Positions 10,638 to 29,321 of a stretch of DNA of 38,894 nt are shown piece by piece (positions within the stretch are counted from its first letter, which is position 1; each line of letters opens with the position of its first letter). The position numbers and the translations under genes are program-made. The stretch spans positions 1 through 38,894 of the forward strand of contig QHZB01000192.1 of assembly GCA_003224525.1 (NCBI GenBank). The letters are read 5' to 3'. The stretch is from Acidobacteriota bacterium. Lineage in GTDB: Bacteria > Acidobacteriota > Terriglobia > Acidiferrales > UBA7541. The notes below the pieces were generated by a model. That model did no database searches. It was not told the origin of the DNA and saw only the letters and a program-made list of their open reading frames with translations.

Positions 10638-10928
10638 ATGAGCGGGCCGGTGAAAGTGCAGATTTTCGGGCAAACGTACTCCCTCCAGGGGGAACTGGAT
10701 GGGAAGTACGTGCAGAAGCTCGCGAAGTACGTGGACGAGAAGATGCACGAGATCGCTGATGTGACCAAGACGGTGGACACGCAGAAAGTCGCGGTGCTGG
10801 CGGCGCTGGCGATTGCGGACGAACTCCACAGCATGCAGCGGGACCTCGGCGATCACGATGAGTTGATGCGCGAGCAGGCTGAGCGTTGCCTGACGCTCGT
10901 CGAACGCGCGTTGAAGCAGACCGCGTAA
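10638..10928 (+). CDS. zapA: Cell division protein ZapA
   Basis: Small FtsZ-associated protein that bundles FtsZ filaments at midcell. The 96-residue product starts MSGPVKVQIFGQTYSL, the N-terminal beta-hairpin common to ZapA, followed by the YVDEKMHEIADV segment, TQKVAVLAALAIADEL and a C-terminal coiled coil. The ATG at 10638 is chosen because the family begins there; the frame is open further upstream without conservation. A possible -10 TATTGT lies at 10607-10612. In many bacteria zapA follows pheT; here an inverted gene separates them. Confidence 0.92.
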   Translation: MSGPVKVQIFGQTYSLQGELDGKYVQKLAKYVDEKMHEIADVTKTVDTQKVAVLAALAIADELHSMQRDLGDHDELMREQAERCLTLVERALKQTA

Positions 10929-28036: not shown

Positions 28037-28067
28037 TTGGACGCGGCTTTGGCGCGGAGGCTACAAT
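28037..28067 (+). promoter_or_regulatory. Promoter of the putative structured RNA
   Basis: TACAAT at 28062-28067 is a good -10 and TTGGAC at 28037-28042 a fair -35, 19 bases apart. Transcription would start near 28074, almost exactly at the left arm of the outer stem of the RNA described next. Confidence 0.45.
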
Positions 28068-28071
28068 GGGG

Positions 28072-28307
28072 ATGGAGCGGTTCTTCGAAGCAGGTGCGGG
28101 AGTGAAAGCTGTTTGAACCAATGACGAATCTCTGAGGTGCTGCGGATAGACAGCCTGTGAGCACGGCCTGTCCCGCTGGCGGGTCCCATCCGGTGGCCAG
28201 GATGAAGACGCGCGAGCGGGGCAGGAAAGCCTAACGGCTGGCTCGTGGCGCCCTACTATTTCAGAGGTTCACGGCCTAGCTCTCCACGGCCAAGCGGTCC
28301 GCTCCAT
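28072..28307 (+). ncRNA. Structured noncoding RNA, 6S-like candidate
   Basis: A 236-base region with no supported gene folds, by hand, into one long rod. Stems in order: 9 bp (28072-28080/28299-28307), 8 bp with one bulge (28094-28102/28280-28287), 5 bp (28108-28112/28271-28275), 10 bp (28126-28135/28261-28270), 5 bp (28136-28140/28248-28252), 5 bp (28151-28155/28236-28240), 10 bp (28167-28176/28216-28225) and an apical hairpin (28187-28191/28200-28204). Two internal loops are large; one (28156-28166 against 28226-28235) holds AGCC-TAAC-GGCT on its 3' side. 6S RNA, which imitates a promoter and binds RNA polymerase, is a rod of this kind, and its gene often follows zapA; ymdB comes next here. 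Position and shape support 6S; conserved sequence was not matched. Confidence 0.5.
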
Positions 28308-28311
28308 GATA

Positions 28312-28343
28312 GTTTTCAGTCGTCAGTATTCAGTCGCCAGTTC
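28312..28343 (-). repeat. Dispersed 'CAGT' repeat, inverted copy
   Basis: GTTTTCAGTCGTCAGTATTC and following CAGTCGCCAG resemble, in reverse, the repeat before ymdB (28480-28513) and at 6721. The two copies here face each other about 140 bp apart. Confidence 0.4.
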
Positions 28344-28479
28344 AAGATGAAACTTTCTAAACGGCGATTTATGGCCGAAAACGAAGAAACATTATTTGAA
28401 GCTGAGAAGATTCTTGGTGGGAGAGATTGTGACCGTTCTCCGGCACAGGCAATATTGCGAGCGAGGGCTCTGCCTTTCC
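28344..28479. other. A-rich spacer between inverted repeats, no supported gene
   Basis: This segment looks lower in GC than its surroundings and lies between two facing copies of the CAGT-type repeat. An open frame of about 50 codons starting MKLSKRRFMAENEE is present but ends inside the right-hand repeat and has no ribosome binding site, so I do not call it a gene. It could be a small non-autonomous element or a gene remnant. Confidence 0.35.
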
Positions 28480-28513
28480 CACTGAACACTCTGAACTGAT
28501 TACTGACAACTGC
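28480..28513 (+). repeat. Dispersed 'CAGT' repeat, direct copy
   Basis: CCACTGAACACTCTGAACTG followed by ATTACTGACAACTG. It ends about five bases before the ymdB start codon and takes the place of a Shine-Dalgarno sequence. Confidence 0.4.
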
Positions 28514-28517
28514 CTTC

Positions 28518-29321
28518 ATGCGCGTACTTTTCCTAGGGGACATCGTCGGCTCGCCGGGACGGCAGATCGTTCACGATCGCCTCGCGGACATCGTTGCCGA
28601 GCGGCAGATCGATCTGCTCATCGCCAACGGCGAGAATTCGGCGTCGGGATTCGGGATCACCCCGAGGCTGGCGGAAGAGCTTCTAAAAATGGGAATCGAT
28701 GTGCTCACCGGCGGAAATCACAGCTGGGACCGCAAAGAGATTCTGGAATACCTGCCGCACGAGCCGCGGCTGCTGCGTCCGGCAAATTTTCCCGAAGGCA
28801 ATCCTGGCAGCGGGCTCTATGCCGGGACGGCCAAGAATGGCGTGAAATACGCCGTGCTGAACCTGCAGGGGCGCGTGTTCATGGCTCCGATTGACGATCC
28901 TTTCCGGAAAGCCGACAGCGAGCTGGCGAAAATTCCAGAAGATGTCGCTTTCGTGTTCGTGGACATGCACGCGGAAACGACTAGTGAGAAGATCGCCATG
29001 GGCTGGTATCTGGACGGACGCGTGACCGCGGTCGTCGGCACGCACACGCATGTGGCCACCGCCGATGAACACGTTCTTCCACAAGGCACGGCTTATATCA
29101 CGGACGCGGGAATGACCGGGCCGCATGGCGGGGTGATCGGAATGGACCGCAACGGCATCATCACGAAATTTCTCAATGGCCTGCCAGCGCGGTTCGAGGT
29201 GGCTTCCGGCAACGTGCAGATGAACTGCGTCTTGATCGAAACCGACGACGAAGGTCCGCGCAATGCCGCCGGCCGTCTCCGTGCCCGCTCCATCGAACGC
29301 CTCCGCTTCGGTATTGACTAA
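28518..29321 (+). CDS. ymdB: YmdB-type metallophosphoesterase (TIGR00282 family)
   Basis: Cytoplasmic two-metal phosphodiesterase; the Bacillus protein acts on 2',3'-cyclic nucleotides and affects biofilm and sporulation choices. Metal ligands appear in LFLGDIVGSPG (Asp8), NGENSASG, GGNHSWDRKE, VDMHAETTSEK and GTHTHVATAD. 267 residues, the family size. ATG at 28518 fits the family start exactly, but a dispersed repeat abuts it and no Shine-Dalgarno is visible. In many bacteria this gene follows rny and lies near zapA; here it follows the putative RNA and rny is not seen. Confidence 0.94.
   Translation: MRVLFLGDIVGSPGRQIVHDRLADIVAERQIDLLIANGENSASGFGITPRLAEELLKMGIDVLTGGNHSWDRKEILEYLPHEPRLLRPANFPEGNPGSGLYAGTAKNGVKYAVLNLQGRVFMAPIDDPFRKADSELAKIPEDVAFVFVDMHAETTSEKIAMGWYLDGRVTAVVGTHTHVATADEHVLPQGTAYITDAGMTGPHGGVIGMDRNGIITKFLNGLPARFEVASGNVQMNCVLIETDDEGPRNAAGRLRARSIERLRFGID

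Follow-up and report, generated by a model that had tools for sequence, protein, structure and literature searches.

The 38,894-nt stretch of DNA analysed here (the window) carries a divergent acidobacterial 6S RNA gene, which belongs to a known family and is longer than usual. 6S RNA is a small RNA that sequesters bacterial RNA polymerase when nutrients become scarce. The central bubble of the RNA can form two mutually exclusive helices, P2 and an alternative referred to here as the collapse helix; both covary across the class, and the two states have near-equal computed energies. The locus is almost certainly what it appears to be, namely the only 6S RNA detected in the genome, with its own sigma-70-type promoter and a two-state release scheme, of which the polymerase steps are the part that we infer. 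A broader reading is favoured with less confidence: the 6S RNA of Acidobacteriota would have evolved a two-state bubble, in which one 3' strand has two rival 5' partners and compensatory change keeps both across ten sampled families, and in one sub-clade an apical loop that tolerates 7-base-periodic, repeat-like inserts, giving RNAs of up to 434 nt. A 6S RNA that falls under the annotation cut-off is ordinary in kind; the two-state bubble and the very long apical forms are more notable.

An earlier note on this DNA, made from the letters alone, had proposed a 236-base rod-like structured RNA, possibly 6S RNA, at 28072-28307. The folding energy of this interval agrees with a structured RNA: the plus strand folds at -117.4 kcal/mol, whereas 200 dinucleotide shuffles average -94.4 (sd 4.8), which gives z -4.82 with none of the 200 as good. 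The minus strand reaches only z -1.94, with 7 of 200 shuffles equally good. The site itself stood, and the conserved outer stem narrows its extent to about 28074-28305 (232 nt). A permissive search of all 4227 Rfam families, including the 6S, RNase P, SRP and tmRNA models that the note had recommended, aligned RF00013 to 28077-28303 from end to end (model positions 1-187 of 187) with 32.2 bits and an E-value of 8.2e-5. This is the sole significant match at the site; the runner-up family has an E-value of 1.4, and RNase P, SRP and tmRNA are absent among the five matches up to E 10. Similar to the E. coli ssrS type described by RF00013, the RNA is a rod with a central bubble, a UGAACC/GGUUCA helix and a GGAA-GCCUAA element. 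The note had been unable to match conserved 6S sequence; UGAACC/GGUUCA and GGAAAGCCUAA, both aligned to the model, are that sequence here.

In contrast to the E. coli type, the window copy has an apical arm with 46 nt outside the RF00013 model, a sub-cut-off score, and ymdB as the next gene. It is in this apical arm that the excess length of the RNA sits. The score is 14 bits short of the RF00013 cut-off of 46.4 bits, and Rfam at gathering thresholds returns no match across the whole window; annotation at that cut-off therefore misses this copy of the gene. Seven same-genus orthologues do exceed the cut-off (G034 54.6, G005 53.2, G003 53.1, G032 53.1, G008 51.4, G035 51.0 and G019 49.2 bits), and these matches sit at the coordinates of the DNA homologues, that is, at the same locus. 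Arm length alone was rejected as the cause of the low score, since G003, G008 and G032 pass the cut-off at 231, 230 and 229 nt. No second RF00013 match at E <= 0.001 is present in the 6.47-Mb genome.

The features of the locus are collected in the table below. The TACAAT promoter, from which a start at the first base pairs had been predicted, is conserved: a TANNNT element 5-7 nt before the start is found in 28 of 31 same-genus orthologues, compared with 1.1% of shuffled upstream sequences. A -35-like hexamer (at least four of six positions of TTGACA, at a spacing of 15-20 nt) accompanies it in 26 of the 31, and 24 of the 31 have a run of at least four T within 15 nt past the outer stem, both being raw counts for which no chance level was computed.

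Table. Features of the 6S RNA locus in window coordinates.
Feature	Position	Strand	Basis or remark
-35-like element TGGACG	28038..28043	+	18 nt before -10
-10 element TACAAT	28062..28067	+	6 nt before GGAGCGG at 28074
6S RNA (ssrS), 232 nt	28074..28305	+	RF00013 full-length match, 31-member genus set
Predicted template of 14-nt product RNA 5'-AUUGGUUCAAACAG	28109..28122	+	Position at bubble/P2 border, by analogy with known 6S RNAs
P2 5' strand UGAACC, ground state	28114..28119	+	Aligned to 6S helix; covaries over 133 bubbles
Distal 5' bubble strand GAAUCUCUGA, 5' side of collapse helix	28126..28135	+	10 bp with 28261-28270; covaries over the class
Tip of hypervariable apical arm, 26 nt	28186..28211	+	Genus alignment; 98-229 nt in five relatives
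Shared 3' strand UCAGAGGUUCA, pairs with either 5' partner	28261..28271	+	
ymdB (TIGR00282 metallophosphoesterase)	28518..29321	+	TIGR00282 and Pfam YmdB over cut-off

The gene neighbourhood is that of other 6S genes in the class. In the window, zapA, pheT and ymdB were named by profile and then used as tblastn queries for the class and genus loci. Because zapA (Pfam ZapA) ends at 10928 and ymdB (Pfam YmdB) begins at 28518, the earlier description of the two genes as 17 kb apart, with the RNA on the ymdB side, is correct. The accompanying argument that 6S RNA is often encoded after zapA is also borne out. Among 28 untruncated class loci, drawn from the best 30 RF00013 scores and thus an uneven sample, 18 have zapA and 18 have pheT upstream on the same strand, 22 have ymdB downstream, and 15 have both zapA and ymdB. 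Within the genus, 29 of 31 loci have ymdB 7-421 nt downstream of the 6S RNA and on its strand, and zapA was not seen in the short flanks of these loci. Two relatives (L042 and L043) have zapA approximately 4 and 6 kb from 6S, on the opposite strand. The 6S gene of Aquifex aeolicus adjoins pheT, according to the accessible part of PMC4227106; together with the 18 of 28 class loci that have pheT upstream, this raises the possibility that the neighbourhood is old.

Two other identities for the RNA have to be weighed against this evidence. The earlier note had allowed for a new RNA class, and a score under the gathering cut-off, a length of 232 nt against 187 model positions and a long apical arm are what a rod-shaped structured RNA with no relation to 6S might show. 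However, RF00013 aligns over its full length, orthologues at the same locus exceed the cut-off, the neighbourhood is the same as that of clear 6S genes of the class, and the genome offers no other RF00013 match at E <= 0.001; a new class is thus scarcely credible. It is also improbable, although slightly less so, that the RNA acts in cis as a leader of ymdB, or was processed out of such a leader, instead of being a free small RNA. The close, same-strand position of ymdB in almost all genus loci would suit a leader, whereas the T runs just past the outer stem, for which no chance level is available, and the match to 6S do not. Co-transcription of the 6S RNA with ymdB is possible.

DNA similarity to the 6S RNA is found in 31 of 36 same-genus genomes (the Candidatus Acidiferrum group, Acidobacteriota), the genome of the window included, and in none of 25 more distant genomes. 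Three of the five genomes that lack it (G014, G020 and G029) have no visible ymdB; in G021, ymdB is cut by the contig start, and G026 has 97 nt before ymdB. With completeness at 63-84% in all five, gaps in the assemblies can account for these absences. The conserved 3' part of the RNA also occurs in 28 named stretches, in a scan that may leave out the window's own record. Most are from Acidobacteria ('gp2' and others), and two are from Candidatus Acidiferrum typicum, which NCBI places in the class Terriglobia. Across the class, RF00013 is matched in 192 of 299 genomes at E <= 0.001, 139 of them over the cut-off; at this E-value the scan misses genus members that DNA similarity finds, for example G006, G011, G016 and G024.

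Some loci met in these scans stand apart. A contig labelled Betaproteobacteria (CAJCHZ010000102.1, L085) bears an acidobacterial 6S locus and is probably a mislabelled bin. In genus g27, a ZapA-like reading frame stands next to ymdB at three loci (L219, L220 and L222, from G091, G210 and G170), without a recognised 6S in the gap. RF00013 matched none of the five listed g27 genomes in the class scan, possibly reflecting a clade-wide loss of 6S RNA. Sub-cut-off matches to AsdA (RF02674, the antisense of dnaA mRNA; 32.9-36.7 bits against 52) at L219, L220 and L221 are perhaps merely conserved dnaA coding sequence.

The outer stem delimits all 31 orthologues; lengths are 216-259 nt in 26 of them and 303-434 nt in the other five. 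In an alignment of the 26 that lack long inserts, 98.8% of the cells are paired in a 6S-type fold. Compensatory changes, which the earlier note had proposed as a check, are present: both sides have changed in 13 of 66 pairs, compared with 5.5 in shuffles (0 of 500 as many) and four at most in slid versions of the structure. Seven of the 13 pairs are in the apical arm, and two of the four pairs in the helix just below P2 (28108-28111 with 28272-28275) have changed on both sides. Covariation therefore backs a rod with closing stem, central bubble and apical arm, and a conserved helix lies at the predicted product-RNA template beside the bubble, as expected of 6S RNA. Within the genus, the collapse helix and the P2 core are nearly invariant, and the genus alone is thus no test of either.

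The two helices differ in which 5' partner they give to the same 3' bases. In the minimum-energy fold, as in the hand fold of the earlier note, GAAUCUCUGA (28126-28135) pairs with UCAGAGGUUC (28261-28270). In the 6S family structure, UGAACC (28114-28119) pairs with GGUUCA (28266-28271). The 9-bp outer, 10-bp central and long upper stems of the hand fold all recur in the minimum-energy fold, but the central stem is not fixed and represents one of two conformers. Among the 31 orthologues the computed energies of the two states are 0.2-3.1 kcal/mol apart; the collapse state is lower in 25, by 0.2-2.8 kcal/mol, and P2 in six. With the 14 template bases masked to mimic a bound product RNA, the collapse helix is part of the best fold in 31 of 31 orthologues, a result that shows only that no other fold beats it, since the mask excludes P2 by construction. 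The extended 3' bubble hairpin of the E. coli type, which is absent from the computed folds of the window copy, does not form in the computation with the template masked either, where the full-length RNA adopts the collapse helix; on its own, the 24-nt stretch of 3' bubble reaches -1.8 kcal/mol.

Both helices were compared across the class. The set comprised 159 6S RNAs, namely 128 class matches and the 31 orthologues; these contain 133 distinct bubbles and represent 51 genera and 10 families. The class scan had given 192 matches, 20 of them in the window's genus. The remaining 172 supplied the 128 used here; two more were discarded as truncated, and 42, mostly the weakest, were left out. Bubble anchors could be set in 159 of 159 RNAs, with L069 flagged as odd. 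The duplex energy of each RNA's own 5' and 3' strands was compared with that of strands swapped between RNAs, a test that uses no tree. Over the 133 bubbles, P2 gave -14.02 for matched and -9.80 for permuted strands (0 of 5000 permutations as good), and the collapse helix gave -13.20 and -10.30 (0 of 5000). Permutation inside families only (0 of 5000), one sequence per genus (0 of 20000) and removal of the window's genus (111 bubbles, 0 of 2000) left both results in place. One sequence per family gave a weaker signal, with 6 of 20000 for P2 and 137 of 20000 for the collapse helix. Because the 23-nt 5' segment reaches the next helix in some families, the collapse helix was retested with a 15-nt segment that stops short of most of that helix; the matched and permuted energies were -9.72 and -6.87, with 0 of 3000 permutations as good both overall and within families, and 231 of 15000 with one sequence per family.

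Four control pairings of neighbouring segments do not clearly covary, unlike P2 and the collapse helix. Swapped strands did as well in 2649, 1048, 1999 and 204 of 3000 permutations, and in 2544, 138, 1352 and 1447 of 3000 within families; two of these values are borderline (204 for control d, and 138 for control b within families). Because the class sequences were found with a model that includes P2, part of the P2 energy advantage was selected for, whereas the collapse helix is absent from the RF00013 model used in picking them. The strength of the collapse helix varies among families. Counted without a computed chance level, 76 of 133 bubbles and 28 of 51 genera have an unbroken helix of at least 7 bp, in 38 distinct strand pairs. 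Collapse helices are weak in families f3, f5, f6 and f8 (-9.0 to -9.5), and in f6 strands from other families do at least as well as the matched ones. At genus level the strengths of P2 and the collapse helix are inversely related (rho -0.38, p 0.006, uncorrected for phylogeny).

A trade-off between the 3' bubble hairpin and the collapse helix was also considered and is unsupported by genus means (rho -0.06, p 0.67), although pooled distinct bubbles (119 sequences) give rho -0.27 and p 0.003; both values include at least three misplaced anchors (L166, L069 and L123). The halves of this hairpin show no clear covariation (554 of 5000, with at least the same three anchors misplaced).

Had the strands drifted without constraint since a paired ancestor, matched ones would not be expected to beat swapped ones, and the covariation of both alternatives supports a selected switch. 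It is unlikely, if less so than the alternatives weighed above, that the collapse helix is simply the resting structure of a 6S RNA whose bubble is closed and does not switch. The lower computed energy of the collapse state in most genus sequences is in keeping with such a static bubble. However, P2 is the lower state in the remaining six, the 6S family model employs it, and it competes for the 3' strand, at least two of whose five bases are taken by the best collapse duplex in 129 of 133 bubbles. P2 also covaries no less strongly than the collapse helix, a comparison tempered by the use of a P2-containing model to find the sequences. If the two-state reading of the bubble is true, the collapse helix would be a functional state under selection.

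In the proposed scheme, P2 would be closed and the bubble above it open in the ground state. This structure would mimic an open promoter and hold the housekeeping RNA polymerase. Once nucleotides are available again, this enzyme would copy about 14 nt of the bubble and P2, from 28122 back to 28109, into the product RNA. Its synthesis would free the 3' strand of P2, which could then re-pair with the distal 5' bubble strand as the collapse helix, thereby aiding release. Polymerase binding, product-RNA synthesis and release are steps that we infer for the window RNA.

A comparable rearrangement has been described for other bacteria. In Bacillus subtilis 6S-1 and A. aeolicus 6S RNA, the collapse helix was inferred, with the product RNA opening P2 and the 3' strand re-pairing with the distal 5' bubble (PMC8876501, in its available text). 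Rearrangements induced by product RNA have likewise been proposed for nine 6S RNAs of Aquificales in the accessible part of PMC4227106. The window RNA resembles the B. subtilis and A. aeolicus type as portrayed in that text of PMC8876501, in that its P2 3' strand is complementary to the distal 5' bubble over 10 bp. It differs from that type in that the alternative helix, 10 bp here, is extendable to 14, in that this helix rivals P2 in computed energy even without product RNA, and in that its support comes from covariation instead of probing. The wider set thus adds comparative evidence for a refolding helix that so far, to judge from the available portions of these papers, rested on probing in Bacillus and proposals for Aquificales. 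The two-state model is now testable with strand-swap mutants.

Among candidate structured RNAs, Weinberg et al. 2010 included 6S-flavo (RF01685) and Acido-1 (RF01686), the latter from Acidobacteria, in the accessible part of PMC2864571, which places further 6S representatives in its supplement. Both are structured RNAs as well, but the five site matches up to E 10 include neither. The literature searched, mostly non-subscription and covered by titles and the beginnings of abstracts, contained no paper on 6S RNA in Acidobacteria, on a covarying collapse helix or on long inserts in 6S RNA, which is not proof of absence.

The five long forms of the genus keep the 6S core and the -10 element and differ in the tip of the apical arm. 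Taking as insert everything between two fixed motifs (26 nt in the window), the tip measures 229 nt in G011, 226 in G030, 178 in G017, 119 in G018 and 98 in G024, and the whole RNAs (loci L032, L036, L033, L034 and L035, respectively) are 434, 431, 383, 324 and 303 nt long. In computed folds the inserts lengthen the rod. All five are 7-base periodic compared with letter shuffles (p from <0.0005 to 0.044). An origin as near-identical mobile elements is unsupported by the two inserts searched: that of G024 finds only itself in its own genome and, in G030 and G011, stretches of this 6S locus (three of six genomes matched), and that of G017 finds only itself among three genomes. An arm-like motif occurs outside 6S in three of seven genomes, while a reversed control finds none in all seven. 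This pattern of repeats suggests that the inserts are degenerate repeat arms, with a mobile element unproven. The very long forms probe how much apical arm the polymerase tolerates.

Repeats are also present near the RNA in the window. A repeat search around the 6S site returned short repeats only. CAGTNNT-like repeats with a period of seven bases lie at 28308-28345 and 28480-28517, at both ends of the spacer between 6S and ymdB, and this period is common to the apical inserts.
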